Shown here: one piece after another, positions 35,209 through 53,571 of the stretch
Layout: every line of letters begins with the position of its first letter
How positions within the stretch are numbered: the stretch's first letter is position 1
DNA from: an uncultured Bacteroidales bacterium
Lineage (GTDB): Bacteria; Bacteroidota; Bacteroidia; Bacteroidales; Muribaculaceae
NCBI GenBank assembly: GCA_902779125.1
Contig: CACZAC010000010.1
Location: 1-57,024, forward strand
Reading direction: 5' to 3'
DNA: 57,024 nucleotides
Program-made: the position numbers and the translations under genes
Notes under the pieces: generated by a model
The model's input: the letters and a program-made list of their open reading frames with translations, nothing else
The model's database searches: none
What the model was told of the DNA's origin: nothing

Positions 35209-36240
35209 TTAGGGGTGGCGGGTGGTGCCGCGGATGACGAGGCGGGTCTTGACGATGCGTTTTTCGGCGTGGTCGGGTGACAGGGTGCCTTCTACCAGAC
35301 CGATAAGGATGTCGGCAGCCTCTTTTCCCACTTGGGTGCCGCGTTGCTCCACCGTCGTCAGCATCGGGTCGCACACAGTGGCACGGAAACCGTTGGTGAA
35401 GCCACAGATGCTCACGTCGTCGGGGACGGTATAACCCATGCGCTTGACCACCGAGAGGATGCCGATGGCGGTCTCGTCGTTGACGGCAAAGAAGGCGTCA
35501 GGGCGGTTCTCCATGTGCATCATGGCAGGCGTAATGCGTTCTGCGTCAGCGCGGTTGTCACAGATGCGCACCAGGTCCTCGTCGAGTGTCAGCCCATACT
35601 TGTACAGGGCGTCACGGTAGCCGTTGAAACGATTCTTGGCAATCATCATATTCATCGATGCTCCGTAGAAGGCGATGCGCTTGCACCCCGTCTCGATGAG
35701 GTGTGACACGGCATTCATGGTGCCCATGTAGTCATCGACCACCACGCGACTGGCATTGAGGGCGGGGCAAATGCGGTCATAGAATACCAGCGGCACGCCA
35801 GCCGTTGTCAGATGCTCAAAGTGGTCGTATCGTTCGGTATCTTTGGCCTGGGAGACGATGATGCCGCACACTTTGTTCTTCAGCATCGCCTCACAGATTT
35901 GTACCTCGCGCTCATAACTCTCGTTACTTTTGGCTACAATCAGATGATAACCGCGCGACGATGCCTCGCTCTCGATGCCGTCGAGGATAGAAGAGAAGTA
36001 GTAATGCACCAGTTCAGGCACAATCACTCCGATGGCACGCGAAGGGTTGCGGCGGCTGTGTCGCAGCTGCTCGGCAATGACATTGGGAAAATAGTTGTGC
36101 TCTCGGGCGAATTGTTGGATTGCCTGGCGGCGTTCGCGCGAGATGCTGGGGCTATCGCTCAAAGCCCTGGATACGGTGGCTACCGATACGCCCAACTCGC
36201 GGGCGATATCTTTCATAGTCATCTGTCGTTTATCATCCAT
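35209..36240 (-). CDS. LacI-family transcriptional regulator of the starch locus
   Basis: The 343-residue regulator has an N-terminal LacI helix-turn-helix (MKDIARELGVSVATVSRALSDSP, about residues 9-31) with hinge helix NVIAEQLRHSRRN. A periplasmic-binding-protein-like sugar-sensing domain follows (AIGVIVPELVHYYFSSILDGIE, VVDDYMGTMNAVSHLIETG, CGFTNGF). It is divergent from the sus genes, and a LacI-type palindrome lies between them, with a second copy ahead of the amylase gene. It therefore probably senses a maltose- or galactose-type sugar and controls both units. In Bacteroides thetaiotaomicron the starch locus uses SusR, an unrelated membrane regulator, so the control here is of a different kind. 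Confidence 0.9.
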   Translation of the reverse strand: MDDKRQMTMKDIARELGVSVATVSRALSDSPSISRERRQAIQQFAREHNYFPNVIAEQLRHSRRNPSRAIGVIVPELVHYYFSSILDGIESEASSRGYHLIVAKSNESYEREVQICEAMLKNKVCGIIVSQAKDTERYDHFEHLTTAGVPLVFYDRICPALNASRVVVDDYMGTMNAVSHLIETGCKRIAFYGASMNMMIAKNRFNGYRDALYKYGLTLDEDLVRICDNRADAERITPAMMHMENRPDAFFAVNDETAIGILSVVKRMGYTVPDDVSICGFTNGFRATVCDPMLTTVEQRGTQVGKEAADILIGLVEGTLSPDHAEKRIVKTRLVIRGTTRHP

Positions 36241-36326
36241 TGTGATTCAATTATAACTAGTGTTGGAGTTGATGGTGGTTCTAAGCCAGCAATCTGTTGC
36301 GAAATTACAACGAATAAACGGACTGC

Positions 36327-36338
36327 GCAAACGATTGC
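36327..36338. promoter_or_regulatory. LacI-type operator upstream of susC
   Basis: GCAAACGATTGC, a palindrome with CG at its centre, as in LacI-family sites. It is the exact reverse complement of the 12-mer at 43926-43937. Fifty-six bases separate it from the susC -7 element, and it is 88 bp upstream of the regulator's own start. Confidence 0.7.
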
Positions 36339-36394
36339 ATTCAATTAAACATTTTTTTAACATTAATAAAAAAGAAAATTAAAAGATATATTTC

Positions 36395-36403
36395 TATTTT
36401 TGC
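36395..36403 (+). promoter_or_regulatory. -7 element of the sus operon
   Basis: TATTTTTGC, leaving a leader of about 120 bases before susC. No clear TTTG box stands at the usual distance, in line with dependence on an activator. Confidence 0.55.
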
Positions 36404-36530
36404 CATGTTTTATAGGCTGCATAATAGGCCTTTAAACCTAGACAGAAATATGGATATGACGATTTCTGGAGTTGTTAAATGACATTAAATATTTGATTAC
36501 CAACATAATATTAACTTTAAAAATTTTAAA

Positions 36531-39500
36531 ATGAAGCAGGTAAACATCAGAATTCCTATTAGGATTCTTACCCTCGTGATGGGACTCTTCCTGTCACTGG
36601 GAGCCTATGCACAGATTACTGTGAATGGCTTAGTGAAGGATGCTACCGGTGAGCCTGTCATCGGCGCGACTGTTCGTGTCGTTGGCACCCAACAGGGTAC
36701 AGTAACCGACTTTGACGGTCTGTTCACCCTCGAAGGTGTGCCTCAGGGCGCCAAGCTCCAGATTTCGTCTATCGGCTACGACACCCATGAGGTGACGGCA
36801 GCCAGTGACTTAGTAATCACCCTGGCCGAGAGCACTCAGATGCTGCAAAATCTGGTGGTCATCGGTTATGGTGTCGTTAAGAAAAACGACTTGACCGGTT
36901 CGGTAGCGGCACTCAAGCCCGATGCCAAGAACAAGGGTGTCGTTGTCAGCGCTCAGGACATGCTCGCCGGTAAGGTTGCCGGTGTGAACGTGACCAGCAA
37001 CAGTGGTGCTCCTGGCGATGGTGCAACCATCCGCATCCGTGGTGGTTCGTCACTGAACGCCAGCAACAACCCCCTCATCGTGATCGATGGTATCGCCATG
37101 GATAACAACGGCGTGAGCGGTCTGTCCAACCCCCTGTCACTCGTTAACCCCCAGGACATCGAGAGCTTCAACGTGCTGAAGGACGCATCGGCAACCGCCA
37201 TCTATGGTAGCCGTGGTTCTAACGGTGTCATCATCATCACCACCAAGAAAGGTCGTCGCGGCCAGCGTCCCTCCGTTTCTTACAACGGTAGCGTGACAAT
37301 GAGCATGAAGAAGAAGACCATCGATGTGATGGACGGTGACGAGTACCGTGATTTCATCAGGAAGTCTTTCGCTGGTGACTCCCGCGAGGAGACCGCCCTG
37401 TCGCTGCTGGGCAATGCCAACACCGACTGGCAGAGCGAGATCTTCAAGACGGCATGGAGCCATGACCACAACCTGACCGTTGCCGGTTCGGTGGGCCAGA
37501 TTCTGCCTTACCGCGTTTCGATGGGTTACACCGACCAGGAAGGTATCCTCAAGACTTCGGACTTCAAGCGCTACACTGTGGCTCTTAACTTGAATCCCTC
37601 CTTCTTTGAGGACCACCTGACAATGAACCTTAACGGTAAGTTGGCTTGGACCAAGTCGCGTTGGGCCGACACCGGTGCTGTGGGTAATGCCGTCCGCATG
37701 GACCCGACGCAGCCCATTTACAGCAATGACCCGATGTATAAGAATGTGGGTGGCTATTTCGAGTGGTTACAGGTGAACAACGCTGACCCCGCTTGGCCCT
37801 ACACCAAGAACGGTAACGCCCCCTACAACCCCGTGGCAATGCTTGACAACCACGACAACACGGGTTGGGCTCACACTTTCATCGGCAGTGCCGACATCGA
37901 CTACAAGATCCACGGTTTTGAAGACTTGAGACTCCACCTCACTCTTGGTGGTGACTTCACCGGTGGTCACGGCCACAACAACAGCACCTGTTATTCTAAC
38001 ACCTCCAACTACTGGGGCAACAACAGCAGGTACACCCAGAGCAAGGAGAACTTGCAGTTGAGTACCTATGCTCAGTACTACAAGGACTTCAACGATTTGC
38101 ACCACTTCGACATCATGGCTGGTTATGAGTGGCAGCACAACTGGCGCAAGGAGTATAACGAGTCATGGGGAACCTATCCCAATGACTCTCAACTCTTCTA
38201 CCTCGCCACTGACAGTGAGAATGCACTCAACGTGGTTCCTGGCCAGTGGATTCCCGGAGCTACTTACCACGTTGGCGATCCCAAGGCCGGTACCATCTAC
38301 GGTGACGGTGTTTATTACCAGTTCAATGGTCTGGGTTACCGCACCGAAAACTTCCTGGTATCGTTCTTTGGCCGTATGAACTACAGCTATGCTAACCGCT
38401 ATCTGTTGACCTTCACCATGCGTTATGACGGCTCGTCGCGCTTCAAAAAGCACTGGGCGCTGTTCCCCTCGGCAGCCTTCGCTTGGAAGATTAACGAAGA
38501 GGACTTCATGAAGGACGGTCCCTTCAGCGACCTGAAGTTGCGCCTCGGTTGGGGTAAGACCGGTCAGCAGGAAGGCATCGGTGACTACAACTACTTCACC
38601 AACTATGTGATGAGTAACGGTAGTGCAGGTTCATTCTATGACATTATGGGTGATGGTACTAAGGCTAAGCCCAATGCTTATAACCCCTTGCTGAAGTGGG
38701 AGACCACCACGACGACCAACATTGGTATTGACTGGGGTGTTATGAACCAGCGCCTGAGCGGTAGCATCGACTGGTACTATCGCAAGACCACCGATCTGCT
38801 TAACAGCGCCACCCTGCCGGCATTGTCCAACTTCCGTGACGTGTTCATGAAGAACATCGGTTCGCTGCGCAACACCGGTATTGAGCTTTCGTTGAACTGG
38901 AAGGCAATTTCCACTAACGACGTTTTGTGGACCCTCGACTATAACCTGACCTACAACAGCAACAAGATCACCGAGTTGGTTGGTGATGATCCCAACTATA
39001 TCGTGCCTCACGGCAACATCTCGGTTGATAACCAGGTACAGGCTCACGTTGTGGGCTATCCCGCTAGCTCGTTCTACGTTTACCAGCAGGTCTATGACCA
39101 GAATGGCCATCCCATCGAGGGCCAGGTGGTTGACCGCAACGGTGACGGTACGATCAGCAACTCCGACAAGTACTACTACAAGTCGCCGCACGCTCCTGTG
39201 ACCATGGGTCTGGCATCGCGCCTCGACTGGAAGAATTGGGACTTCGGTTTCAACCTGCGTGCAAGCATCGGCAACTACCTGTTCAATAACGTGATGCAGA
39301 GCCGACACAACGTCAGCAATGCCGCTATGCTCGAAGAGATTGGTGGTAAATACCTGGTTAACCGTCCCGTCGAGATGGTTAAGTTGGGTTGGCAGACCTA
39401 TGATGTCAAATCATTGGAGACCGACTATTGGGTTCAGAATGCTTCGTTCCTCAAGTGTGACAACATCACCCTGGGTTACAGCTTCAATAACCTGTTCAAG

Positions 39501-39665
39501 CGTGGCAGTTACAATGGCATCGGCGGACGTCTTTACGCCACCGTTTCCAATGTGTTCTGCATTACCAAGTTTGACGGTATCGATCCCGAGAATTCAGGTG
39601 GTATCTGTGGTGATATCTTCCCGCGTCCCATCTCGTTCATCCTCGGTTTGAGCCTGAACTTCTGA
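36531..39665 (+). CDS. susC: SusC-like TonB-dependent transporter of the starch locus
   Basis: The 1044-residue outer-membrane transporter imports malto-oligosaccharides with SusD. It has a signal peptide (LVMGLFLSLGAYAQ), a carboxypeptidase-D-like domain (ITVNGLVKDATGEPVIGATV, residues 28-100), TonB-box region LQNLVVIGYGVVKKNDLTGS and plug VNVTSNSGAPGDGATIRIRGG. The barrel ends PRPISFILGLSLNF, with the terminal aromatic. It is first in an operon with susD and two SusE/F-like genes; that company and the amylases nearby support starch as substrate. It is only moderately like the SusC at 29373-32738. Confidence 0.92.
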   Translation: MKQVNIRIPIRILTLVMGLFLSLGAYAQITVNGLVKDATGEPVIGATVRVVGTQQGTVTDFDGLFTLEGVPQGAKLQISSIGYDTHEVTAASDLVITLAESTQMLQNLVVIGYGVVKKNDLTGSVAALKPDAKNKGVVVSAQDMLAGKVAGVNVTSNSGAPGDGATIRIRGGSSLNASNNPLIVIDGIAMDNNGVSGLSNPLSLVNPQDIESFNVLKDASATAIYGSRGSNGVIIITTKKGRRGQRPSVSYNGSVTMSMKKKTIDVMDGDEYRDFIRKSFAGDSREETALSLLGNANTDWQSEIFKTAWSHDHNLTVAGSVGQILPYRVSMGYTDQEGILKTSDFKRYTVALNLNPSFFEDHLTMNLNGKLAWTKSRWADTGAVGNAVRMDPTQPIYSNDPMYKNVGGYFEWLQVNNADPAWPYTKNGNAPYNPVAMLDNHDNTGWAHTFIGSADIDYKIHGFEDLRLHLTLGGDFTGGHGHNNSTCYSNTSNYWGNNSRYTQSKENLQLSTYAQYYKDFNDLHHFDIMAGYEWQHNWRKEYNESWGTYPNDSQLFYLATDSENALNVVPGQWIPGATYHVGDPKAGTIYGDGVYYQFNGLGYRTENFLVSFFGRMNYSYANRYLLTFTMRYDGSSRFKKHWALFPSAAFAWKINEEDFMKDGPFSDLKLRLGWGKTGQQEGIGDYNYFTNYVMSNGSAGSFYDIMGDGTKAKPNAYNPLLKWETTTTTNIGIDWGVMNQRLSGSIDWYYRKTTDLLNSATLPALSNFRDVFMKNIGSLRNTGIELSLNWKAISTNDVLWTLDYNLTYNSNKITELVGDDPNYIVPHGNISVDNQVQAHVVGYPASSFYVYQQVYDQNGHPIEGQVVDRNGDGTISNSDKYYYKSPHAPVTMGLASRLDWKNWDFGFNLRASIGNYLFNNVMQSRHNVSNAAMLEEIGGKYLVNRPVEMVKLGWQTYDVKSLETDYWVQNASFLKCDNITLGYSFNNLFKRGSYNGIGGRLYATVSNVFCITKFDGIDPENSGGICGDIFPRPISFILGLSLNF

Positions 39666-39704
39666 TTTAGTTGACACATTAACTTATAAATTAGTCAGAA
39701 TACA

Positions 39705-41378
39705 ATGAATAAGTTTTTCAAATATATATTGAGTGCGGCTGTGGTGCTGCTGATGGCAGGAGGTCTGTCCTCTTGCATCAATGACCTGGATGTGGAGCCT
39801 ATCGATCCGGCGCTGCAGAGCGATGTCACCGCCGAGGAGATTTTCAACAAGTGCTATTCGGTGTTTGCCACCTCGGGCCACAATGGTGGTGATGATGCTA
39901 AAGATATCGATAAGATCAATGACGCTGGTTTTACTCATCTGTATCGCCAGATGTGGAACTCCAATGAGTTGACCACCGACGAAGCCCTGTGTAGTTGGAG
40001 CGATGGCGGTATCAACGATTTCAATTACAATACCTTTGATGCCGGTCATTCGATGATGGTTGGTTACTATTACAGGTTGTGCCTGGGTATCACCTTCTGC
40101 AACCAGTATCTTGACATGTTTGCTGACTATGACGCCACGATGACTGCCGAGATTCGTTTCTTGCGTGCCTTCCAGTATTATCTGTTGACCGACGCGTTTG
40201 GAAATGTGCCTTTCAGTGATACCTTCACGGGTGATTCTCCCGAACAGTACACGCGCACCCAGGTGTGTGAGTTCATCGAGAAGGAGCTCAAGGCCATCAC
40301 TGGCGAGGACGCTAGCGACAATGGTAATATCCTGAATGATCCTAGTCCCAAGAAGTATGGTCAGGCAGGTTACGGCCGCGTTGACAAGGCTGCTGCCTGG
40401 ATGCTGCTGGCTCGTGTGTACCTGAACAGTGAGGTTTACACTGGCACTCCCCGTTGGAAAGAGGCTGCTGACTATGCCAAGAAAGTGATCGACTCGCCTT
40501 ACAAGCTGAACACCAATGGCTATGCCGGAAATGGTATCGACGGTGTTTATCGTGAGTTCACCGCCTATCAGATGCTCTTCATGGGTGACAACAGCACGAC
40601 TGATGCTGCCTATGAGGCCCTGTTCCCTGTTATCCAAGACGGTCTGCGCACCACCTCGTGGGGTGGCTCGGAGTTCCTGATTGCTTCGACGGTTGACGAT
40701 GCCGTTCGTCCTTATCGCTATGACGAGACCGAGGTCAATGGTCTTTATGACAACAATGCTTGGGCTGGCAACCGTGCTCGTCCCGAGTTGGTTCGTCTGT
40801 TCTTCCCCAACGATGACGCACCCGAGGCTCATGCCTATGATGTGTATGAGGTGGCCGAGGATGACCGCGCGTTGTTCGAGACTATGGGCCACACGCTCAA
40901 CATCACCGATCCTGCTAACTTCAAGTATGGTTTTGCCGTTGCCAAGTTCAACAACTTCAAGTGTGACGGCAGCAAGGGCAGCAGTATCACCTTCCCCGAC
41001 ACCCATCTGTTCTACATGCGTGTGGCTGAGGCCTATCTGACCTATGCAGAGGCCCTTACCCGCATGAGTGGCGATGTTGCTCCCGCCGAGGCCGTGGCAG
41101 CTATCAATGCAATCCGTGGTCGTGCCCACGCCTTGGAGCGCAACCGTTACACGCTCGACCAGATCCTGGAAGAGTGGGGCCGTGAATTCTACTTCGAGGG
41201 TCGTCGCCGTGTGGATTTGATCCGCTTCAACAAATTTGGTGGCGACACCGGCTACCAGTGGCAATGGAAGGGTGGTGTGTATGCAGGCCGTGATTTCCCT
41301 GCCTACCGTAATGTATTTGCCATCCCCCACGATGACCTGATTGCTAACTCCAAGTTGACGCAGAATCCCGGTTATTGA
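39705..41378 (+). CDS. susD: SusD-like starch-binding lipoprotein
   Basis: The 557-residue protein has a lipobox (LLMAGGLSSCINDLDV, Cys about 25) and TPR-like helices. The C-terminal signature LEEWGREFYFEGRRRVDLIRFNKFG is typical of SusD. It starts 39 bp after susC. In the Sus system this protein binds helical malto-oligosaccharides by aromatic residues at the surface and hands them to SusC. Aromatic-rich segments (SYYYRLCLGITFCNQYLDMF-like) are present, but the sugar-binding residues could not be mapped by eye. Confidence 0.92.
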   Translation: MNKFFKYILSAAVVLLMAGGLSSCINDLDVEPIDPALQSDVTAEEIFNKCYSVFATSGHNGGDDAKDIDKINDAGFTHLYRQMWNSNELTTDEALCSWSDGGINDFNYNTFDAGHSMMVGYYYRLCLGITFCNQYLDMFADYDATMTAEIRFLRAFQYYLLTDAFGNVPFSDTFTGDSPEQYTRTQVCEFIEKELKAITGEDASDNGNILNDPSPKKYGQAGYGRVDKAAAWMLLARVYLNSEVYTGTPRWKEAADYAKKVIDSPYKLNTNGYAGNGIDGVYREFTAYQMLFMGDNSTTDAAYEALFPVIQDGLRTTSWGGSEFLIASTVDDAVRPYRYDETEVNGLYDNNAWAGNRARPELVRLFFPNDDAPEAHAYDVYEVAEDDRALFETMGHTLNITDPANFKYGFAVAKFNNFKCDGSKGSSITFPDTHLFYMRVAEAYLTYAEALTRMSGDVAPAEAVAAINAIRGRAHALERNRYTLDQILEEWGREFYFEGRRRVDLIRFNKFGGDTGYQWQWKGGVYAGRDFPAYRNVFAIPHDDLIANSKLTQNPGY

Positions 41379-41406
41379 TGCGATTATAATGTCTAACAAT
41401 TATAAA

Positions 41407-41486
41407 GTTGTCAGTCATCAGTCGTTAGTTGTCAGCGGCATTCGCAATCAACTGATAACTGGAAACTGAAAACTGAAAACTTAAAC
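41407..41486. repeat. Palindromic repeat in the susD-susE gap
   Basis: The left half is GTTGTCAGTCATCAGTCGTT-type units, the core AGCGGCATTCGCAATC and the right half AACTGATAACTGGAAACTGA-type units, so the RNA could form a long imperfect hairpin. The same design lies in the next intergenic gap at 42704-42783. Confidence 0.75.
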
Positions 41487-41503
41487 TAAATGACAATAAG
41501 AAT

Positions 41504-42691
41504 ATGAAAAAGATATTTTTATCATCACTGATGCTGCTGAGCATGGCACTCGTGTTCACCGCATGCGAGGATGACCGTGATTCTAACCCCACGCTGAAGC
41601 AACCTACCACGTTCAAGCTCAACGAACCTGTGAACCCGATGGTTGACTTGGCTCTTTCCACGGCCATTCCCATGGCCTGGTCACAGCCCGACTTCGGCGG
41701 CTGGCCTGCAGCCTGTGAGTACCAGTTCGAGGTATCTCCCACCAACGAGTGGACCGTTTCGACCGACATGGCTGCTGCCGACACTACTGGCACTACCGTT
41801 GCCAACTACTCAGTCCTGAGGGCCGTGTATGCAAGTTGCAGTGGCGACATGAATGTTGAGGACCTGAACAAGGCGCTGAATCGTATCTTCCAATGGGAAG
41901 AGGAAACTGTGCCTGAGAAGCAGACGGTGTATGTGCGCTGCCGTGCTATCACTGCTGGTGCAGAGCCCGTTTACTCCAATGTAGTAAGCCTGGAAGTGAA
42001 TCCCTATTATGTTGACCTCAGCACCGAGGTTAGCGATGAGATTGAACTGTGGTACCTCATCGGTGCTTGCATCGGTGACGGTTCATGGGGCAACGATCCC
42101 GCTAATGTGGGTACCGCTCTCATCCCGATGTATCCCGTCTATGATACCGATGGCAGCGTGATGCCCGGTGAAATCCAGTATGTGGGTTACTTCCCCGCCG
42201 ACCAGGGCTTCAAGCTCGTTAAGGTTCCCGGTAGCTGGGACGATCAATGGGGTCAGGGCGACGCTGGCTACGTGAAGAATGATGGTGGTAGCAGTGACAT
42301 CAAGCTTTCTGCCGATGGTTACTACAAGATCCACCTCAACACCGCTACCGACGAGCTCACCATTGAGCCTTACGAGGGCACTGTGGGTGTTTACACCCAG
42401 ATTGCTATGCCTGGTGATTATCAGGGTTGGAGCACTGCCGATAACCTGTTGAATCCCATGAGCACCCTTGACAATGTTGAGAACCATGACTGGTTCCTGA
42501 AGAGTGTGACCTATGAGGACACTGGTCTCAAGTTTGCTGCCGATAACGACTGGGCTGTGAACTGGGGTGGTAATGGCTTCCCGCATGGCCAGGGTACTCA
42601 GGACGGCCCCAACATCAATGTTGTTGCTGGTACCTACCATGTATACTTCAACGATATCTTGGGCACCTACAACTTTGTCCCTGTCGAGTAA
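41504..42691 (+). CDS. SusE-like surface starch-binding lipoprotein
   Basis: The 395-residue protein begins with a lipobox (LLSMALVFTACEDDRD, Cys about 21). An immunoglobulin-like SusE N-terminal domain follows (residues 30-165, with VDLALSTAIPMAWSQPDFGG and ...EYQFEVSPT). Two starch-binding repeats follow, each of W-Y-L-I-G / Y-T-Q-I-A-M-P-G style (ELWYLIGACIGDGSW and GVYTQIAMPGDYQGWS). The tryptophans in SWDDQWGQ and NDWAVNWGG are typical of maltooligosaccharide contacts. In Bacteroides SusE and SusF hold starch at the cell surface. The next gene is a close paralogue. Confidence 0.85.
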   Translation: MKKIFLSSLMLLSMALVFTACEDDRDSNPTLKQPTTFKLNEPVNPMVDLALSTAIPMAWSQPDFGGWPAACEYQFEVSPTNEWTVSTDMAAADTTGTTVANYSVLRAVYASCSGDMNVEDLNKALNRIFQWEEETVPEKQTVYVRCRAITAGAEPVYSNVVSLEVNPYYVDLSTEVSDEIELWYLIGACIGDGSWGNDPANVGTALIPMYPVYDTDGSVMPGEIQYVGYFPADQGFKLVKVPGSWDDQWGQGDAGYVKNDGGSSDIKLSADGYYKIHLNTATDELTIEPYEGTVGVYTQIAMPGDYQGWSTADNLLNPMSTLDNVENHDWFLKSVTYEDTGLKFAADNDWAVNWGGNGFPHGQGTQDGPNINVVAGTYHVYFNDILGTYNFVPVE

Positions 42692-42703
42692 ATTAATAAC
42701 CAA

Positions 42704-42783
42704 GTTTTCAGTCATCAGTTTTCAGTTGTCAGCGGCATCCGCATTCAACTGAAAACTGAGAACTGAGAACTGAAAACTGAGAA
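42704..42783. repeat. Palindromic repeat in the susE-susF gap
   Basis: AGTTTTCAGTCATCAGTTTT and CAGTTGTCA on the left face TCAACTGAAAACTGAGAACT on the right around GCGGCATCCGC. The halves are near-perfect inverted copies. The element ends seven bases before the next start codon. Confidence 0.8.
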
Positions 42784-42790
42784 ATAAAAA

Positions 42791-43864
42791 ATGAAGAAGT
42801 TTTTATATATTGCTGCAATGGGCTTGTTGCTGGCAAGCTGTACCGAGGATTTCAAGGATTGGGCAGAGCCCCAGAGCAATCCCCAGGACGAAGTGATTAC
42901 CTTCGGAACCGGTTCGGTAACTCCTGCAGACGTAATTGACTTTGCTGAGGTGACAGGAGATCGCGTTAAGGTGTGCAACATCACTGCTCCGGCTACCACT
43001 GACACCACTTATCATCCTGAATACACCATCTATCTCAATGGCGAACCTTTCGTTCTGGGCTTAGACGGTACGATGGATGCTGATGAACTTTCAAACTATG
43101 TGACTTCGCTCTTTGGCAAGGCTCCCGAGCTCCGCGTACTCCTCGCCCGTGTGATGTGCGTGATGAGCAATGGTGTCACTGCTACCACAATCATGAGCGA
43201 TCCGTTTGATGTTAATGTTATTCCCGCTCCCATCGAAGTGCCCGACTTGTGGTATCTGGTGGGTTCGTGCATCGGTGACGGTTCATGGGGCAACGATCCC
43301 GCCAACGTGGGTACCGCTCTTATTCCCATGTACGCCGAGGCTGAGGACTACACGATTCTTAACTATGTTGGTTTCTTCCCTGCAGGCCAGGGCTTCAAGA
43401 TCATCCACAATCCCGGCAACTGGGACGAGCAGTGGGGTCAGGGTGCCGACGGCTACGTGAAGAACGATGGCGGCAGTGGCAACATCGAGGTGCCTGCCGA
43501 CGGTTACTACGTGATTACCTACGACATGAACGCCGAGACGCTGTCAGTTGAGCCCTACGATGGTCTGGTAGGTGTCTATGGCATGATTACCATGCCTGGC
43601 GGTTATCAGGATTGGGACGTTGGCGGTAACGCTATGACGCCCATGAGCACTGTGGTCGAGAATCACGACTGGATCGTGAAGGACGTAACCTATGATAACA
43701 CCGAGCTCAAGTTTGCCAACGGCACATGGGCTGTGAACTGGGGCGCAACGACCTTCCCCGTGGGTGTGGGCACCCAGGGCGGTCCCAACATCCCCGTTGA
43801 GGCCGGAACCTACACTGTTGTGTTCAACGACATCCTGGGCAGGTACTACTTCATTCTGCAGTAA
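42791..43864 (+). CDS. SusF-like surface starch-binding lipoprotein
   Basis: The 357-residue lipoprotein (LLLASCTEDFKDW, Cys about 17) is a paralogue of the preceding gene. The N-terminal domain differs (DEVITFGTGSVTPADVIDF). The C-terminal 215 residues with two starch-binding repeats are very similar (DLWYLVGSCIGDGSW, GVYGMITMPGGYQDWD). At the DNA level a run of at least 35 identical bases near 43267 is shared with 42066, so the repeats may have been exchanged recently. It is the last gene before the terminator at 43890. Confidence 0.82.
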   Translation: MKKFLYIAAMGLLLASCTEDFKDWAEPQSNPQDEVITFGTGSVTPADVIDFAEVTGDRVKVCNITAPATTDTTYHPEYTIYLNGEPFVLGLDGTMDADELSNYVTSLFGKAPELRVLLARVMCVMSNGVTATTIMSDPFDVNVIPAPIEVPDLWYLVGSCIGDGSWGNDPANVGTALIPMYAEAEDYTILNYVGFFPAGQGFKIIHNPGNWDEQWGQGADGYVKNDGGSGNIEVPADGYYVITYDMNAETLSVEPYDGLVGVYGMITMPGGYQDWDVGGNAMTPMSTVVENHDWIVKDVTYDNTELKFANGTWAVNWGATTFPVGVGTQGGPNIPVEAGTYTVVFNDILGRYYFILQ

Positions 43865-43889
43865 ACACTTGTCATAACTAAGAATTCCC

Positions 43890-43923
43890 GGCGGGGACGT
43901 GCCACACGAGGCGCGTCCCCGCC
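43890..43923 (+). terminator. Terminator of the sus operon
   Basis: GGCGGGGACG pairs with CGTCCCCGCC. The following T run is weak, and the LacI-type operator begins only two bases further on. Confidence 0.6.
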
Positions 43924-43925
43924 TT

Positions 43926-43937
43926 GCAATCGTTTGC
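43926..43937. promoter_or_regulatory. LacI-type operator upstream of the amylase gene
   Basis: GCAATCGTTTGC, the exact reverse complement of the site ahead of susC, extended here to the 14-bp TGCAATCGTTTGCA. It is 57 bases before the -7 element. Confidence 0.7.
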
Positions 43938-43994: not shown

Positions 43995-44003
43995 TATTTT
44001 TGC
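43995..44003 (+). promoter_or_regulatory. -7 element of the amylase-galactanase operon
   Basis: TATTTTTGC, the same element as at susC. The leader to the ATG at 44105 is about 95 bases. Confidence 0.6.
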
Positions 44004-44104
44004 ATTAATTAGGCATCATGACGACAAAACTGGTTTTTTTCTTGTTTTTGTGTTCGACTTGCACTAATTTTGTGGGATATAACCAACTAAAAACTATACT
44101 AACA

Positions 44105-46171
44105 ATGAAAAAGATTCTTACTACCTCGTTTGTGGCTTTGCTGCCCTTGCTGATGCTGGCACAGGGTTGGCCCGATCGCTATAGTGGCGTGATGTTGCAG
44201 GGTTTCTATTGGGACTCCTTCAGTGAAACCCAGTGGCCTAAACTCGAATCCCAAGCCGATGAATTGGCTGAATTCTTCAAACTCGTGTGGATACCCCAGA
44301 GCGCCTATTGCGGCGGCAGGTCGATGGGTTATGATGACCTGTATTGGTTCACCAACTACAGCAGTTCCTTTGGTAACGAGACGCAGCTGCGTTCGATGAT
44401 TAATACCTTCAAGGATAAGGGCATCGGCACCATCGCCGATGTGGTCATCAACCACCGCAAGAGTTTTAATGGCTGGTTTGGCTTCCCTCGTGAAACCTAC
44501 AAGGGCGTGACCTATTCGATGTCTTCAACCGATGTCTGCTCAAACGACGATGGTGGCAAGGCTTTGGCTGAGGCCAACCGCCTGGGACTGCAGTTGGGCA
44601 ACCGCGACACGGGTGAGGATTGGGACGGCATGCGTGACCTGGACCATACGAGCCAGAATGTGCAGACCGTTGTCAAGGCTTACTTGAAAATGCTGCTCAA
44701 TGACCTGGGTTATGTGGGTTTCCGTTACGATATGACCAAGGGATATGCTGCAGCCTATACTGGTATGTACAACGTGGATGCAGCTCCCGAGTTCTCGGTC
44801 GGTGAGTTTTGGGATGGCTATCTGCCGACGTTGAAGAGCTGGGTTGACGGCACCAAGGTCAATGGCGTGGTCCAGAGTGCGGCATTTGACTTTACTTTCC
44901 GTTACACCATCCGTGATGCGGTCAACAACAACGTTTGGTCCAATCTGGCTGGCAGCGGCAAGGGACTCTGCTTGGATAACAACTACAAGCGCTATGCCGT
45001 TACCTTTGTTGAGAACCACGACACGCAGTATCGTGACGCCAACAACCAGAATGACCCCATCCGTACCAACATCGAAGCAGCTAACGCTTATCTGCTGTCA
45101 ATGCCTGGTACACCTTGCGTCTTCCTCAAGCACTGGATTGACTATAAGGAAAGCATCAAGCAGATGATTTATGCCCGTCAACTCGCTGGAATCACCAACA
45201 CCAGCGCAACAAATAACATGGCTAACAGCCAGGATAAGAACTACTATGCGCAACGCACAGTGGGCACACGTGGCATGATTCTCGCCGCAATGGGTTCGAC
45301 GGCTTACAATATTCCCGCTACCTATGTGCAAGTGCTCAGTGGCACCAACTACCGTCTGGCGTTGAGCAAGACCACCGAGACTGCTTGGGTGAGCAAGCCC
45401 AGTGGCGAGTATAAGAGTGCCATCGATGTGACCTTCACGGCAGTGAGCCAGACCGATGGTGCACAGCTCGTCTATACACTTGATAGTAGCGAGCCTACCG
45501 CCAGCAATGGCACTAAGGTAAGCGATGGAACAACCATCAACCTCACAGAGAACTGCACGTTGAAGGCCGGCTTGCTGATCAATGGTGCTGTGAGTGGTGT
45601 CATCACCCGTGACTATGTGATAGGTAACCAGCCGATAGAGCCATTTGAGCCTTATGAAATCACGGTCTATCTTAAGGACCCGACCGTTGCTCCCAACAAC
45701 TGGCCGCAGGTGAACTTCTACACTTGGGACAGTTCTGACAAGCAGTTCAATGGCAACTGGCCCGGTCAGACGATTACTGCCACCAAGGAGGCCAAAGGCA
45801 TCAAGTTCTACTATCACACCTACTCTATCACGAGCAAGGACTACTACATGAACTTTGTGTTCAGTCAGGGTGGTAGCAATGCCGGAAACTTCCAGACCGA
45901 AGACGTTACCCATGTGACCAAGACCTCCGTCTATGAGGTGACGTCACAGACCAACAAGTATACCGTCAAGGACGTGACCGATGAGTACCTGCCTTATCTT
46001 GAAGGCATCAAGGGTGACGTGAACGGTGACGGTGAGGTGAGCATTGCCGATATCAATGCGATTATCACCATGATTTTGACTTCCAATCCTACTGCCGCTG
46101 GTGACGTGAACGGTGACAATGAGGTGACCATCGCGGATGTCAATGCTGTTATCGGAATCATTTTGAGTTGA
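44105..46171 (+). CDS. Exported GH13 alpha-amylase with starch-binding and C-terminal dockerin-like modules
   Basis: The 688-residue enzyme hydrolyses alpha-1,4 bonds of starch. The start at 44105 gives signal peptide MKKILTTSFVALLPLLMLAQ; an earlier in-frame ATG at 44018 lies just after the promoter and gives a poorer leader. The catalytic residues are D209 (GFRYDMTKGY), E234 (SVGEFWDG) and D306 (ENHDTQ), with ADVVINHR as the calcium-site region. The sequence style is that of plant/archaeal-type amylases. After the barrel come a chitobiase-C-like fold (residues about 455-535) and a starch-binding module (EITVYLKDPTVAPNNWPQ). A dockerin pair ends the protein (46010-46168: DVNGDGEVSIADINAIITMI, DVNGDNEVTIADVNAVIGII). 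The GH53 gene follows 28 bp later. Confidence 0.92.
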   Translation: MKKILTTSFVALLPLLMLAQGWPDRYSGVMLQGFYWDSFSETQWPKLESQADELAEFFKLVWIPQSAYCGGRSMGYDDLYWFTNYSSSFGNETQLRSMINTFKDKGIGTIADVVINHRKSFNGWFGFPRETYKGVTYSMSSTDVCSNDDGGKALAEANRLGLQLGNRDTGEDWDGMRDLDHTSQNVQTVVKAYLKMLLNDLGYVGFRYDMTKGYAAAYTGMYNVDAAPEFSVGEFWDGYLPTLKSWVDGTKVNGVVQSAAFDFTFRYTIRDAVNNNVWSNLAGSGKGLCLDNNYKRYAVTFVENHDTQYRDANNQNDPIRTNIEAANAYLLSMPGTPCVFLKHWIDYKESIKQMIYARQLAGITNTSATNNMANSQDKNYYAQRTVGTRGMILAAMGSTAYNIPATYVQVLSGTNYRLALSKTTETAWVSKPSGEYKSAIDVTFTAVSQTDGAQLVYTLDSSEPTASNGTKVSDGTTINLTENCTLKAGLLINGAVSGVITRDYVIGNQPIEPFEPYEITVYLKDPTVAPNNWPQVNFYTWDSSDKQFNGNWPGQTITATKEAKGIKFYYHTYSITSKDYYMNFVFSQGGSNAGNFQTEDVTHVTKTSVYEVTSQTNKYTVKDVTDEYLPYLEGIKGDVNGDGEVSIADINAIITMILTSNPTAAGDVNGDNEVTIADVNAVIGIILS

Positions 46172-46427
46172 TGGATTTAACGAGTGAAATTATCTTACCA
46201 TGAGATATAAATTAATGTGTTTGGCGCTGGTGATTATGTCACTCAGCGCCAGCGCTGCTTCAAGAAGTGACGTGAACGGTGATGGCGAGGTGACCATTGC
46301 TGATGTGAATGCTGTCATCGGGGACATCCTGTCAGGACAGTACTCCGTTGCCAGCGATGTGAATGGTGACGGCGAGGTAACAATTGCTGATGTCAACAGG
46401 GTGATAGATACCATTCTGGGGCGTGAT
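46010..46427. repeat. Near-identical dockerin-coding repeats in adjacent genes
   Basis: The C-terminal dockerin of the amylase gene (46010-46168) and the N-terminal dockerin of the GH53 gene (46266-46427) hold four half-repeats with strings such as GACGTGAACGGTGA in common. They lie within 420 bp in direct orientation. Confidence 0.7.
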
Positions 46428-47558
46428 GAAGAACAGCCCTATGACGGACCTGTGGTCGGCGGTGATATTTCGATGCTGACCAAGTATGAGGCACACCAGC
46501 GCATGGCGTTGCGCTATGGTATCAGAAACGCCCATTACTATGACATCAACGGCCAGATTATTGACGATGTGATTACATGGACCAAGCAGCAGGGATGGAA
46601 TGCAGCCCGCGTGCGCTTGTTTGTCAATCCCGCCAATGCCTCGGCCACCGATGTGGGACAGGGCGTTATCCAGAATCTGGATACTGTTAAAGTGCTCGGA
46701 CAGCGCATCAAGGCGGCAGGTATGCAGTTCATGCTCGATTTCCATTACAGCGACAGCTGGGCCGACCCGGTCAAGCAGTTTACGCCAGCCGAATGGGCCG
46801 ATTTGGACGACGATGCATTGACACAGCGGGTGTATGAATACACGCGTGACTGTCTGCGTGCCCTCAAAGCCGCTGGAGCGACGCCCGATTTTATCCAGAC
46901 GGGTAACGAAATCAGTTACGGTATGTTGTGGGGACCGGTGGGCACGCCTACCAGCCAACTCAAGAAGTGCTATAGCGGTGACGAGACCAATTGGGTGCGC
47001 TTTACCAATCTGCTTAAGGCTGCTGGACGTGCCTGCCGTGAGGAATGTCCCAATGCTAAAATCATCCTGCACACCGAGCGGGTCGCCAAACCACCCATAC
47101 TGCTCAATTTCTACAACCAGATGCGGAACAAGCAGGTGGATTATGATATTATTGGCTTGAGCTACTATCCCTACTTCCATGGCAATCTGTCAACACTGGC
47201 CACTGCGCTCAATAATGTGAGCAATTCGTTCCAGGACAAGGATATCATGATTGTCGAGACGGGCTACAGCTACAAGTACAAGGTGGGTGATCTGGACTAC
47301 TCGTCAACATGGCCGTTGACGCCAGCGGGGCAGCGCAAGTTCACCACCGACCTCATCGCTAAACTCAAGCCCTATGTCCGCGTCAAGGGATTGTTCTGGT
47401 GGTTCCCCGAGGCTAACGAGTATGGTTTGGGTGGCAGTTACTGGAGCACGCTTCACGTCAATGACGCATGGTACAATGCCGGCTTGTGGAACCAGGAGAC
47501 AGGCAAGGCACTGCCTGCCCTTTACGAGTTCAAAACTTTTCTGGAAGAATCCAGGTAA
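46200..47558 (+). CDS. Exported GH53 endo-beta-1,4-galactanase with N-terminal dockerin-like module
   Basis: The enzyme cuts beta-1,4-galactan, the side chains of pectin (arabinogalactan type I). A signal peptide (LMCLALVIMSLSASA) runs straight into a dockerin pair (residues 23-74; DVNGDGEVTIADVNAVIGDI, DVNGDGEVTIADVNRVIDTI). The GH53 barrel follows, with RVRLFVNPAN, LDFHYSDSWADPVKQ, acid/base E237 (TGNEISYGMLW) and nucleophile E353 (IVETGYSY). Dockerins in this window otherwise lie at or near the C-terminus, so this one is unusual. It is in one transcription unit with a starch enzyme although its substrate is a different polysaccharide. Confidence 0.9.
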   Translation: MRYKLMCLALVIMSLSASAASRSDVNGDGEVTIADVNAVIGDILSGQYSVASDVNGDGEVTIADVNRVIDTILGRDEEQPYDGPVVGGDISMLTKYEAHQRMALRYGIRNAHYYDINGQIIDDVITWTKQQGWNAARVRLFVNPANASATDVGQGVIQNLDTVKVLGQRIKAAGMQFMLDFHYSDSWADPVKQFTPAEWADLDDDALTQRVYEYTRDCLRALKAAGATPDFIQTGNEISYGMLWGPVGTPTSQLKKCYSGDETNWVRFTNLLKAAGRACREECPNAKIILHTERVAKPPILLNFYNQMRNKQVDYDIIGLSYYPYFHGNLSTLATALNNVSNSFQDKDIMIVETGYSYKYKVGDLDYSSTWPLTPAGQRKFTTDLIAKLKPYVRVKGLFWWFPEANEYGLGGSYWSTLHVNDAWYNAGLWNQETGKALPALYEFKTFLEESR

Positions 47559-49188: not shown

Positions 49189-51054
49189 TTAAAATTCGAG
49201 CACCAGCGTGCCGCGGGCGGGCAAAGTAATCGCACCGCTAGACAGGTCGATGGTCTTACCTGTGGGTACATCGCGGGCAGCAGTCGTGTTGCCGAGGACC
49301 TCTTTATAACGTTCAAGTTTCATCTGGCGCTGGCTGCTGGTGCCGTTGATGATGGTCATGGCATGACGGCCCTTGTAGTTGCGGTCAATGACATAAATGC
49401 CGTCTTTAGGGATGAACTGCGTCATCTTGCCCTTGATGATGACGTCATTGCCCTGACGCCAGTGCAGCAGGGTGCTCAGCCAGTTGAACATGTCGTTCTG
49501 GGCAGTAGTGCGGCCCTCGGCGGTAAAGGCGTTGTGGGCATCTCCGGGGAATCCGCCGGGAAAGTCCTTGCGCACGTTGCCGTCGGTGATTTGCTTGGTA
49601 CCGTTCATCAGTATCTCGGTGCCGTAGTACAATTGCGGGATGCGCTGGATGGTGAGAAGCAGGGCAAGTGCCTGTTTCAGTGCTGGCACATCCTGGCCTT
49701 CGCGCAGGAAACGGTCGGTATCGTGGTTTTCGATGAAGGCCATCACACTCGACGGGTTAGGGTAGAGGTAGTCATGGCACAGGCTATTATACACACGGTT
49801 GTAGCCGCGCCACCAGCCGTCGGTCTCCTCGTGCTTGGCGCTGTCAATTTTCTCATAGAAGGAAAAGTCCATCACCGTGGGCAGGTAGCTCTCGGGCTTG
49901 CCCATTTTGTTGCCCTTTTGCCAGGCGGCGGTATAGGCGGGATTCTCTACCCAAGTTTCACCCACGACGTTAAAGTTGGGATACTCGGTATTGAGCACTT
50001 TCATCCAGCGCGCCATAGCGTCGGCATAGGCATAGGGATAAGTGTCCATGCGGATGCCGTCGATACCCACTGTCTCAATCCACCATATACTGTTCTGAAT
50101 CAAGTAGTTCATCACATGGACGTTGTGATGGTTCAAGTCGGGCATCGAGGGGACGAACCACCCCTCGACGGTTTCCTTGAGGTCGATTTCGCTGGCATAG
50201 GGGTCCATTACAGGCGTGAGCTTGTAGCTGGTCTGCAGATAGTTGTTCTTGTAGTCGGGCTGGTTGAACCAGTCATGGGTGGGCATGTCCTTGAGCCAGG
50301 GGTGATAGTTGCCGCAGTGGTTGAAAATCATGTCCATCACTACCTTGAGGCCGCGGCTATGGGCCTCGTCACACAGGCGTCGGTATTCCTCGTTTGTGCC
50401 GAAGCGTGGGTCAACCTTGTAGTAATTGGTGGTAGCATAGCCGTGGTAGGTAGAGTGGTTGTGGCCATCGGGTGAATTGTTCTCCAGCACAGGCGTGAAC
50501 CATAGAGCGGTAACACCCAATTGGGTGAAGTAGTCCAGATGCTGACGTATGCCCTCGATATCACCGCCGTGGCGCAGACTTGGCTTCGAGCGGTCATTTG
50601 TGTAGGCCTCCATGCCTGGGATTTGATTGTTGGCAGGGTTGCCGTCGGCAAAGCGGTCGGGCATGAGCATGTAGAGCACGTCGGCGTTGGTGAAGCCAAG
50701 GCGCTCAGTGCCGCGTTTTTCGCGGGCCTTGAGCTGGTATTTTACAACCTTCTTGTTGCGCCCCTGCTGGAACTTGAGTTCCATGGTGCCTGGTTGGGCG
50801 CTGCGAGTGTTGATGTACACGAGCAGGTAGTTGGGCGAGTCCACCCTCACCACACTGTCAATGGTCACGCTGGGATACTGTGTGGTCACCTCGGCACTGC
50901 CGATGCCGTTGCCATAAACCATCAGCTGCACGCTGGGTACTGTGTTGATGCCGACATACCAGTCAGTCGGCTCGATACGGTCCACGTTGACCTTTGCTGC
51001 CTGGGCGGTGAACATACCTGCCACCGCGGCAAGAATCAATAATAATCTTTTCAT
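49189..51054 (-). CDS. susA: SusA-like GH13 neopullulanase/cyclomaltodextrinase
   Basis: The 621-residue exported enzyme probably cuts malto-oligosaccharides and cyclodextrins in the periplasm. It has a signal peptide (LLLILAAVAGMFTAQA), an N-terminal beta domain (about residues 21-115, VDRIEPTDWYVGINTVPSVQL) and a GH13 barrel. The catalytic residues are D337 (GIDGIRMDTYPY), E366 (VVGETWV) and D445 (IENHDTD), with VMDMIFNHCG as region I and MPDLNH as the neopullulanase-type region V motif. The length equals that of Bacteroides SusA. No dockerin is present. It is divergent from the C10 protease and has its own promoter, without a copy of the LacI-type operator. Confidence 0.9.
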   Translation of the reverse strand: MKRLLLILAAVAGMFTAQAAKVNVDRIEPTDWYVGINTVPSVQLMVYGNGIGSAEVTTQYPSVTIDSVVRVDSPNYLLVYINTRSAQPGTMELKFQQGRNKKVVKYQLKAREKRGTERLGFTNADVLYMLMPDRFADGNPANNQIPGMEAYTNDRSKPSLRHGGDIEGIRQHLDYFTQLGVTALWFTPVLENNSPDGHNHSTYHGYATTNYYKVDPRFGTNEEYRRLCDEAHSRGLKVVMDMIFNHCGNYHPWLKDMPTHDWFNQPDYKNNYLQTSYKLTPVMDPYASEIDLKETVEGWFVPSMPDLNHHNVHVMNYLIQNSIWWIETVGIDGIRMDTYPYAYADAMARWMKVLNTEYPNFNVVGETWVENPAYTAAWQKGNKMGKPESYLPTVMDFSFYEKIDSAKHEETDGWWRGYNRVYNSLCHDYLYPNPSSVMAFIENHDTDRFLREGQDVPALKQALALLLTIQRIPQLYYGTEILMNGTKQITDGNVRKDFPGGFPGDAHNAFTAEGRTTAQNDMFNWLSTLLHWRQGNDVIIKGKMTQFIPKDGIYVIDRNYKGRHAMTIINGTSSQRQMKLERYKEVLGNTTAARDVPTGKTIDLSSGAITLPARGTLVLEF

Positions 51055-51179: not shown

Positions 51180-51216
51180 AAAATGATATACAATATGCAC
51201 TTTTATTAATTTGAAT

Positions 51217-53571
51217 ATGAGAAATCGGATACTTTTAATTGCGCTGTTTTGTGCGGTGATGGTGTGCCCTTCTTGGGCCGCTACCATCAGTGAGAGTAGG
51301 GCTCGTCAAATTGCTGCCGACTTTATGTCAACGCATGCCAGAAAAGTGAATGGAGGAAGTATGCAGTTGGCTCGTAAGGCGCCTTCAATTAACGCGTCAA
51401 CCCCTGCTCCCTATTATGTGTTTAACGCCGGTAGCAGCAATGACGGATTTGTCATTGTAGCTGGTGATGATAGAGTGCCTCTGGTGCTTGGCTATAGCGA
51501 TCAGGGATCCTTTGATGTCAACTCGGTTCCCGAGGCTATGGAAGAATGGCTTGATGGTTATGCACAACAGATTGCAGCCCTGGCTCAAGGTGGCAAGATG
51601 GCAGCACACATCAGTTCATCAACTCCGATTCTTCCCATGGTGAACGCAGTCTGGTCCCAAAATTCACCTTTTAACACAATGCTTCCATTCTTGTCCAATG
51701 GCAAACATGCTTATGTGGGCTGTGTGGCAACGGCGATGGCCCAGGTGATGTACTACTGGAAATGGCCCAAGAAGTCGGAAATCATTCCTTACTATCGTAG
51801 CGAGACATTAGGTGTCGAAATGCCTGCTTTGCCCGCTGTGGATTTTAATTGGGATGCCATGCAGAACACCTATCTCACTAGCGATAGCCTTAGTGTCGAA
51901 GGGCGGGCTGCTGCTCAGCTTTCCCTCTATTGCGCCCAAGCGGTACGAATGGACTTCTTGAAAAACTCATCTTCAGCTCAAACCAGTGACGTTCCGGCTG
52001 CTATGTCTCAATATTTTGGCTATTCGCCCAATGCCAAAGCAGTCAGACGTATCTTCCACACGACTCAGGAATGGGAGCAACTCATCCTTGACGAGTTAGA
52101 GGATGGACGTCCGGTCATCTATAGCGGTCACAAGGAGTCTTCTGGACATGCCTTTGTGTGCGATGGTTATGATGGTCAGGGAAGATTCCACTTCAATTGG
52201 GGATGGAATGGCAAGAGTAATGGTTACTTCCTGCTCAATGTGCTCAATCCTGACCTGGAGGGAACAGGTGGAGCCGGTGGCTCATACGGCTATGTCTCGA
52301 ATCAATACATTATTGCAGGACTGGCACCTGGTGGTACCTATGTGGAAGATTTAGAAGTCACTGTAAGAGGTGTTGAAATTCAGGACTTTAAGAGGACACG
52401 TACCTTGTCAAGTCAGGATTTCACGTTGACTCAGGCTACGCAGTTTGGAAATTATATGAATGATCCCATTGACTTTTACTATGGATGGGGACTGTATCAA
52501 GGCGACCAATTGCTTTCGGTGCTTGAGAACGGAATTAAGTATGGTCTGCCATCCTGGTATTATAGCACAATCACTTCAACCTTGTCATTTGGTAGTGGTA
52601 TCACCAGTGGTTCATACCGCATATTGCCTATTTATAAAGGTATCTTTGAGGAAGAATGGACCCCATGTGAAGGTAGTGATATTTCTTTCTACGAAGTGAT
52701 AATTAGTGGAAACAACTGTACTGTAATCGGGCATGGCGGTGGCATGGCTCCGTACTATCAGGTCAACGCTATTACTGCGACTGGCAATATGCATCCCACT
52801 AGGCCGGTAGACATCAATCTTAATGTGACTAATCTAGGAAATACCCGTAACGACATCATTTATATGTTTGCCAAGAATGAACTTGTTGCGATGGGTTTTG
52901 TCGACCTCAATAAGAATGAGAGTGGCAATGTCGTTTACCGTTATGAGCCAGAGGCTGTTGGCACAGTGGACTTAAAGTTCACAACCGATGAGGAGGGTAA
53001 TAATGTGCTGGCGACCAAGACGATTACGATTAACGCGATGCCCACTGCCTCGCTCACGGGACAGGCAACAGCCCTCAATGTGACAAATGCCGGTGATAAG
53101 ATAATGACCGCCAATTACTTTGGTATGGAAGTGCAAATAACCAATGTCGGCACCAATACCTACGACGAAGATATCACGGTTAAACTCTATAAGCGGGTTT
53201 ATGGCACTACGGGAACATTGGTACAGACTTTAAGCCAGCATCTGGTGCTTGCTCCTCAGGAGACAAAGAAATTGACCTTCCACATGGATAACGTCATTGA
53301 TGGTTGGAAATATTTTGCTAAAGCCTACTACTATAGCAACGCCGAGCAGATTAATGTGGCTAATGTTAGCACCCACACCATCATCTTCCCTGCTAGTGGC
53401 CCCATTAAGGGTGACGTCAACAAAGACGGAGAGGTCTCGATTGCCGACGTTAACGCCGTCATCTACATGATTACAAAGGGCGTGCAGGACCTCAACGGTG
53501 ACGTGAACAATGACGGTGAGGTGACCTTAGCCGACGTGAATGCTGTTATCAGCATTATCTTGGCCAATTAA
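51217..53571 (+). CDS. Secreted C10 (streptopain-like) cysteine protease with C-terminal dockerin-like module
   Basis: The 784-residue protein carries a signal peptide (LIALFCAVMVCPSWA) and a Spi-like inhibitory prodomain (residues 24-130, ISESRARQIAADFMSTHA, FVIVAGDDRVPLVLGYSDQG). The papain-fold C10 domain has catalytic C169 (YVGCVATAMAQVMYYW) and H311 (SSGHAFVCDGYDG), and FHFNWGWNGKSNGYF completes the site. Beta-sandwich domains of CARDB type (about 390-720) follow, then a dockerin pair (53407-53568; DVNKDGEVSIADVNAVIYMI, DVNNDGEVTLADVNAVISII). Relatives include Prevotella interpain and periodontain-like proteases. A TTG two codons upstream is a less likely start than the ATG. Confidence 0.92.
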   Translation: MRNRILLIALFCAVMVCPSWAATISESRARQIAADFMSTHARKVNGGSMQLARKAPSINASTPAPYYVFNAGSSNDGFVIVAGDDRVPLVLGYSDQGSFDVNSVPEAMEEWLDGYAQQIAALAQGGKMAAHISSSTPILPMVNAVWSQNSPFNTMLPFLSNGKHAYVGCVATAMAQVMYYWKWPKKSEIIPYYRSETLGVEMPALPAVDFNWDAMQNTYLTSDSLSVEGRAAAQLSLYCAQAVRMDFLKNSSSAQTSDVPAAMSQYFGYSPNAKAVRRIFHTTQEWEQLILDELEDGRPVIYSGHKESSGHAFVCDGYDGQGRFHFNWGWNGKSNGYFLLNVLNPDLEGTGGAGGSYGYVSNQYIIAGLAPGGTYVEDLEVTVRGVEIQDFKRTRTLSSQDFTLTQATQFGNYMNDPIDFYYGWGLYQGDQLLSVLENGIKYGLPSWYYSTITSTLSFGSGITSGSYRILPIYKGIFEEEWTPCEGSDISFYEVIISGNNCTVIGHGGGMAPYYQVNAITATGNMHPTRPVDINLNVTNLGNTRNDIIYMFAKNELVAMGFVDLNKNESGNVVYRYEPEAVGTVDLKFTTDEEGNNVLATKTITINAMPTASLTGQATALNVTNAGDKIMTANYFGMEVQITNVGTNTYDEDITVKLYKRVYGTTGTLVQTLSQHLVLAPQETKKLTFHMDNVIDGWKYFAKAYYYSNAEQINVANVSTHTIIFPASGPIKGDVNKDGEVSIADVNAVIYMITKGVQDLNGDVNNDGEVTLADVNAVISIILAN

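Follow-up and report, generated by a model that had tools for sequence, protein, structure and literature searches.

A conserved, probable LacI-family starch regulon with an activator-type promoter layout in an uncultured Bacteroidales bacterium and its relatives

The lacI–susC locus and its two operators

The DNA analyzed here, referred to as the window, is a stretch of 57,024 nucleotides (contig CACZAC010000010.1 of assembly GCA_902779125.1) from an uncultured Bacteroidales bacterium of the family Muribaculaceae. It carries a starch utilization (Sus) locus in which a gene for a LacI-family regulator, hereafter lacI, is divergent from susCDEF, and an amylase operon follows downstream (Table 1). 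A 12-bp palindrome, GCAAACGATTGC, lies between lacI and susC, and its exact reverse complement, GCAATCGTTTGC, lies upstream of the amylase operon; both belong to the palindrome class GCAANCGNTTGC. Judging from the sequence comparisons described below, we consider this arrangement to be real, conserved, and functionally coherent, namely a LacI-family starch regulon whose promoters have a layout of the activator type.

Table 1. Genes, operators, and promoter elements of the Sus locus (positions are those of the window)
Feature	Position	Strand	Basis or remark
LacI-family regulator gene (lacI)	35209-36240	-	343 amino acids; domain scan; sole PF00356 gene found in the genome
Probable lacI -7 element, TAATTTCG	36300-36307	-	one mismatch to TAnnTTTG; 19 bp from operator 1
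Operator 1, GCAAACGATTGC	36327-36338	+	common to the divergent lacI and susC promoters
susC -7 element, TATTTTTG	36395-36402	+	56 bp after operator 1
susC-like TonB-linked receptor	36531-39665	+	Pfam and NCBIfam scans
susD-like protein	39705-41378	+	narrower NCBIfam SusD model at 427.2 bits, under its cut-off of 725
SusE/SusF-like starch-binding protein	41504-42691	+	domain scan
SusF/SusE-like starch-binding protein	42791-43864	+	domain scan
Operator 2, GCAATCGTTTGC (operator 1 word on the - strand)	43926-43937	+	word search
Amylase-operon -7 element, TATTTTTG	43995-44002	+	57 bp after operator 2
GH13 alpha-amylase with CBM26 and dockerin-like domain	44018-46171	+	domain scan
GH53 (endo-galactanase family) with dockerin-like domain	46200-47558	+	starts 28 bp after the amylase gene

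The initial annotation had described matching positions for the two 12-mers ahead of a common -7 word, and this was confirmed: the word TATTTTTGC occurs at 36395-36403 and 43995-44003, with the same gaps of 56 and 57 bp, and a word search of the window found no further exact copy of the 12-mer, as had been noted. When two mismatches were allowed, nine matches were found in the window against 6.67 expected, and nine were reached in 21 of 100 shuffles; the mismatched word is not rare there, so it is the palindrome class in its exact form, together with the spacing, that carries the evidence. This lack of clear enrichment lends some support to the idea that two unrelated words in A/T-rich promoters happen to match, but the whole-genome and comparative counts given below leave that explanation with practically no probability, and conservation already refutes it. 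Among the window sites listed at one or two mismatches, none but the two operators has TAnnTTTG within the next 70 bases. One near-site (19567-19578) was set aside, as by eye it sits in a GC-rich hairpin, and no site with two or fewer mismatches was found within 200 bases upstream of the cyclomaltodextrinase gene (49189-51054).

The gene content read by the initial annotation, with a LacI-family gene divergent from susC and an amylase-galactanase operon, also held when the proteins were scanned: PF00356 and PF13377 domains were found in the lacI product, and a GH13 amylase gene is followed by a GH53 gene. The Pfam models SusD, SusF_SusE, and Alpha-amylase and the NCBIfam model SusC/RagA, which together characterize a Sus locus, all exceeded their cut-offs. 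No regulator other than LacI was found among the scanned genes of the locus, and no SusR-directed search of the genome was made. The true start of the amylase is likely the ATG at 44105, where by eye the sequence that follows resembles a signal peptide, as it does in the amylases of relatives. GH53 is encoded in the amylase operon although galactan is not starch, and the pairing persists in two relatives (G025, locus L109; G034, locus L125). Matches to dockerin type I occur in the window at 44018-47558, 18080-19432, and 51211-53571, as well as in loci L014, L112, and L127, and the domain is present in 13 of 43 regulon first genes from the own genome and relatives.

Sites, spacing, and targets within and beyond the genome

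In the genome to which the window belongs (G000; 3.35 Mb, 97 contigs, 90.67% complete), we searched for GCAANCGNTTGC and for a spaced pattern composed of the site, 48–64 bp, and TAnnTTTG, using the reversed pattern of GCAANCGNTTGC as the control. Numerous chance copies had been named in the initial annotation as a possible refutation; the genome contained 11 sites against three for the control, and seven spaced matches against none. TAnnTTTG lies 54, 55, 56, 56, 56, 57, and 57 bp downstream of these seven sites, all of which precede starch genes. The first genes of the seven promoters are susC (in the window, as susCDEF); the window GH13 amylase (followed by GH53); a gene for a 2115-residue protein with CBM26, X25, and CBM20 matches; genes for a 1074-residue GH13 protein and for a 1076-residue GH13 protein with a dockerin domain; an MFS transporter gene, followed by genes for GH77 and a pullulanase-like GH13 protein; and a gene for a 721-residue X25/CBM20 protein. 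The shared starch regulon that had been proposed from the two window promoters is thus borne out and is larger than the window shows, with five further promoters elsewhere in the genome. The exact 12-mer accounts for six of the 11 sites, five of which have the spaced -7 element, the sixth being a copy on contig C41. Besides the C41 copy, the sites without TAnnTTTG at 54–57 bp comprise one near a contig end and two intragenic ones, in genes that we take from their sequences to be dxr and a gyrA-like gene. Allowing two mismatches at a fixed spacing of 56 bp yielded one extra match (contig C13, two mismatches), compared with two in the reversed control. The 2115-residue protein (L012:8929-15276), which has the same operator upstream, contains starch-binding modules, and Pfam finds no catalytic domain in it. 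A second GH13 gene, whose product is 65% identical to the window amylase (G000:C5:107466-109553), lies on a contig without any GCAANCGNTTGC site.

The initial annotation had suggested searching for the palindrome upstream of orthologous susC genes, and it proved to be kept there. Named genomes were scanned, and the best 80 of 82 candidates yielded 79 lacI loci, mostly from metagenome-assembled genomes labelled Prevotellaceae, Prevotella, Muribaculaceae, or Bacteroidales, many of them from ruminants; Segatella copri, Xylanibacter brevis, and Hoylesella loescheii are included. In RUG14590 the LacI protein is 100% identical to the window regulator over the match, and the window probably comes from a rumen bacterium related to Prevotella. 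The GCAANCGNTTGC palindrome, with its central CG, is located upstream of lacI in 79 of 79 loci, and the -7 element facing away from lacI lies 55 bp (11 loci), 56 bp (66 loci), or 57 bp (2 loci) from it. The intervening spacers comprise 78 distinct sequences with a median pairwise identity of 42% over the first 50 bases. In the 14 named loci inspected, the divergent open reading frame (ORF) resembles the start of the window SusC over its first 70 residues. In a second set of 30 lacI loci, the -7 element lies at 54–57 bp in 29, and the remaining locus (L039) ends four bases past the operator; as 18 of these 30 also belong to the named set, the two counts cannot be treated as independent. Each of 37 same-genus genomes (36 and the own genome) has one LacI orthologue, 65–100% identical. 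These genomes contain 390 palindrome matches against 92 for the reversed control and 205 spaced matches against one, every genome having two to eight. The spacings were tallied from the 150 of 218 spaced matches that were listed; among the 139 listed from the genus, 126 fall at 54–57 bp, compared with 33 if the 17 spacings from 48 to 64 bp were equally likely.

A corresponding search upstream of the amylase gene, likewise suggested in the initial annotation, found the exact palindrome before 15 of 18 close orthologues (at least 69% identity, the window's own included). The -7 element lies at 56–58 bp in 14 of these 15 promoters and at 47 bp in the fifteenth (L238). It also lies at 47 bp in L235, where the site has one mismatch; this distance is ten bases, or about one helical turn, below the 57 bp of the window. 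Among the 12 more distant best matches with loci (L249–L260), three show the site directly upstream, and some of the amylases without a site come second in a tandem gene pair, with the site located before the first.

To survey the targets more widely, we collected 50 pairs of site and -7 element with a spacer of 50–60 bp from the own genome and ten relatives, six of the same genus and four of other families. A first gene could be assigned to 47 pairs, leaving three without. By our reading, 40 of the 47 first genes encode SusC, sugar MFS transporters, GH13, GH77, GH97, glycogen phosphorylase, or starch-binding proteins; several of these were classed by blastp similarity to own-genome targets together with a family tally over 43 first genes. 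Among them, L126 was classed by similarity to the 2115-residue protein only, since the domain scan found nothing in it, and L123 by a CBM20 match under its cut-off. The other seven encode enolase, glyceraldehyde-3-phosphate dehydrogenase (GAPDH), pyruvate phosphate dikinase (PPDK), a Fur-like ORF, a chorismate-binding enzyme, YchF, and an aspartyl protease. Spacers of 59–60 bp separate the site and the -7 element before the chorismate-binding enzyme, YchF, and the aspartyl protease, and the latter two stand at the back of a divergent promoter. The assignment of the Fur-like ORF (L130) as a first gene is tentative, because a large ORF lies beyond it, where a GH13 relative maps. The operators before the genes for enolase, GAPDH, and PPDK, at 55–57 bp, are found in L111 (G025) and in L141 and L142 (G049), which suggests that in some lineages the regulon extends into central carbon metabolism.

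The spaced pattern is not confined to the genus. Spaced sites, 13 in all against one match to the reversed control, occur in six of 24 genomes from other families. Such sites were present in 6 of the 12 genomes with a LacI homologue of at least 39% identity and in none of the remaining 12 (Fisher p = 0.014), with the 39% split chosen after the data had been seen and with some LacI match at E 0.001 in 17 of the 24. In G057, the site lies between a lacI homologue and a susC operon, and in G055 the gene at the LacI match lies within a GH77-GH13-MFS operon that has the site.

The regulator and the lacI promoter

The assignment of the regulator to the LacI family, made in the initial annotation, was upheld by profile searches. 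The N-terminal helix-turn-helix model PF00356 scored 59.5 bits (cut-off 27), and the periplasmic-binding-protein-like sensor domain scored 113.9 bits with PF13377 and 98 bits with PF00532. The LacI-family domains span residues 8–340, unlike the SusR type, which is a membrane regulator without a LacI helix-turn-helix, and no other PF00356 gene was found in the genome, which is 90.67% complete. The closest solved structure by sequence is that of CcpA, and the protein scored well below the cut-offs of the CcpA equivalog TIGR01481 (165.8 bits; 442.35), the MalI model NF007449 (125; 310), and the Cra/FruR model NF008452 (116.5; 385); indeed, no named LacI equivalog in NCBIfam reached its cut-off. 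Regulators of other families bind CG-centred palindromes as well, and another transcription factor might in principle use the site, with the neighbouring lacI gene a bystander. We consider this very improbable: GCAANCGNTTGC has what we take to be the canonical form of a LacI-family operator, the genus has one LacI orthologue per genome and the own genome one PF00356 gene, the site precedes lacI in every named locus, and outside the genus the spaced sites accompany LacI homologues, if with a split chosen post hoc. Looping between the two window operators, as in the lac operon of E. coli, was set aside because the protein ends at residue 343 and five targets lie on other contigs; the tetramer-forming tail of E. 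coli LacI would not fit in a protein of this length.

On the lacI side of the operator, two promoter types were found. A -7-like element (with TAnnTTCG allowed, as the element in the clade of the window usually has that C) lies 19 bp from the operator in 41 of the 79 named loci, 54–57 bp from it in 36, and at neither distance in two. At 19 bp, the TTG of the operator itself falls at -23, counted from the T of TAnnTTTG, in 41 of 41 loci, because of the 19-bp spacing itself; this is the -33 position of background promoters. The operator would thus supply the -33 box of lacI in the clade of the window, and the LacI protein should block its own promoter there while activating susC. In the other clade, with 54–57 bp on both sides, it should activate both lacI and susC. 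The operator is symmetric in 31 of the 36 loci of the 54–57-bp type and in none of the 41 of the 19-bp type, and the two labels follow the protein tree (a quick tree with weakly supported deep forks), with two changes needed for the 19-bp group. An imperfect second palindrome, GCAATCTGTTGC, is located at 36289-36300 of the window and shares one base with the lacI -7 element; the word also occurs in L148 and is absent at the lacI promoter from most relatives inspected.

Activation or repression, and the place of the regulon among known systems

We compared 138 non-redundant regulon promoters with 118 other promoters from the same loci. TTG at -23 was present in 4% of the regulon promoters versus 19% of the background (p = 0.0004, from rounded counts), TTG anywhere from -26 to -16 in 22% versus 41% (p = 0.0018), and TTTG from -28 to -16 in 11% versus 24% (p = 0.007). 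A missing -33 box usually reflects dependence on an activator. A second shared element was sought between operator and promoter, and weak A/T-rich preferences only were found, at about -50, -40 to -37, and -30 to -27. The near-constant distance of the operator, together with the two cases that are about one turn shorter, is what contact with polymerase predicts, and there is no evident reason why a repressor at 54–57 bp should require such precise spacing. The suggestion in the initial annotation that the layout suits activation better than blocking is supported by this spacing and by the depletion of the -33 box, as far as geometry can indicate.

Several observations weigh against an activator of starch genes. 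The exact GCAAACGATTGC copy on C41 (L008, G000:C41:6569-6580), which follows a gene that is presumably phosphoesterase-like, lacks a -7 element at the usual distance. Among the close amylase orthologues, L242 and L248 lack a site, and that of L235 has one mismatch. Four spaced sites at 54–57 bp precede not starch genes but those for enolase, GAPDH, PPDK, and the Fur-like ORF. Because many of the counted loci are related by descent, the counts represent non-independent events, and the agreement of seven different promoters within one genome is a stronger argument than the cross-genome counts. Some of the background promoters are chance TAnnTTTG words or come from related loci, and their own peak was used to choose the position -23. 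Finally, members of the LacI family are mostly repressors, and a fixed upstream contact may instead serve repression that depends on an effector.

In line with this tendency, which extends to most LacI-family sugar regulators and to CcpA, the nearest solved relative and mainly a repressor, a classical LacI-type repressor could act on the same operators and be released by maltose or maltodextrin; in 41 of the 79 loci, moreover, the operator overlaps the -33 position of lacI, as a repressor site would. The fixed distance would then reflect polymerase contact in the repressed state or the inheritance of promoter cassettes. At susC and the other targets, however, the operator lies 54–57 bp away, upstream of the -33/-7 region, at near-constant spacing, and the target promoters are short of a -33 box. 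The spacers vary in sequence between targets and species, so inheritance of a single cassette fails to account for the constant distance. A classical repressor therefore seems unlikely to us.

We instead favor, with a probability of roughly 0.78, the reading that the lacI product is a dedicated activator of a scattered starch/alpha-glucan regulon, acting from a fixed upstream position and repressing itself at operator 1. We infer that the regulator binds the GCAANCGNTTGC palindromes as a dimer, centred about 60–63 bp upstream of the -7 element, and that its effect there is activating. The bound protein would touch RNA polymerase at these promoters, most of which have no good -33 box, and at operator 1 it would also cover the -33 box of lacI, limiting its own synthesis. 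A maltose-type or glucose-derived effector probably controls it.

The fixed upstream site seen across this regulon differs from repression by MalI and MalR. These two exemplify LacI-family control of maltose genes, and Cra is described as both repressor and activator (PMC4052901). In Bacteroides thetaiotaomicron, the starch operons susA and susBCDEFG are activated by SusR (BT3705), a membrane protein with a predicted direct-repeat motif whose centres are 67 or 77 bp apart (PMC3878776); the likeness lies in the starch operons controlled, whereas here the regulator is of the LacI type and uses one 12-bp palindrome. The LacI-family sugar regulators KdgR, UxaR, UxuR, and UxmR of Bacteroides, with reconstructed regulons (PMC3878776; three also in PMC4052901), belong to the same order and family but govern uronate pathways, not starch. 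Predicted sus loci with LacI-type regulators, MFS transporters, and GH65, and without SusR, were annotated in 2024 in B. fragilis and B. uniformis (PMC11633381); the MFS operon described here has GH77 and GH13. The presence of LacI genes in sus loci that lack SusR is thus already in print; the passage on these genes (PMC11633381) names neither an operator nor a regulon nor the sign of regulation. A study of polysaccharide utilization loci in Segatella copri mentions LacI once, near uronate genes, and also mentions a degenerate starch locus (PMC11784079). Our literature searches found no LacI operator, regulon, or activator layout for starch in Bacteroidota, and no account of the control of starch use in rumen or gut Prevotella.

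Starch is a main substrate of rumen and gut Prevotella. We lean towards the view that in Prevotella and related Bacteroidales a LacI protein has replaced SusR as the starch activator. One operator would activate susC from about 56 bp and, in one clade, repress lacI; the shift in distance (19 versus 54–57 bp) would track clade and operator symmetry, and some lineages would reach enolase, GAPDH, and PPDK. The present analysis gives one regulator, one operator, a list of seven target promoters, and a distance rule for starch use, and the same susC-lacI layout in the cultured relatives Segatella copri and Xylanibacter brevis makes the rule testable. The regulon would also provide a clean case of activation, together with the Bacteroidota polymerase, by a protein family that usually represses, and a case of autoregulation that changes when one distance changes.

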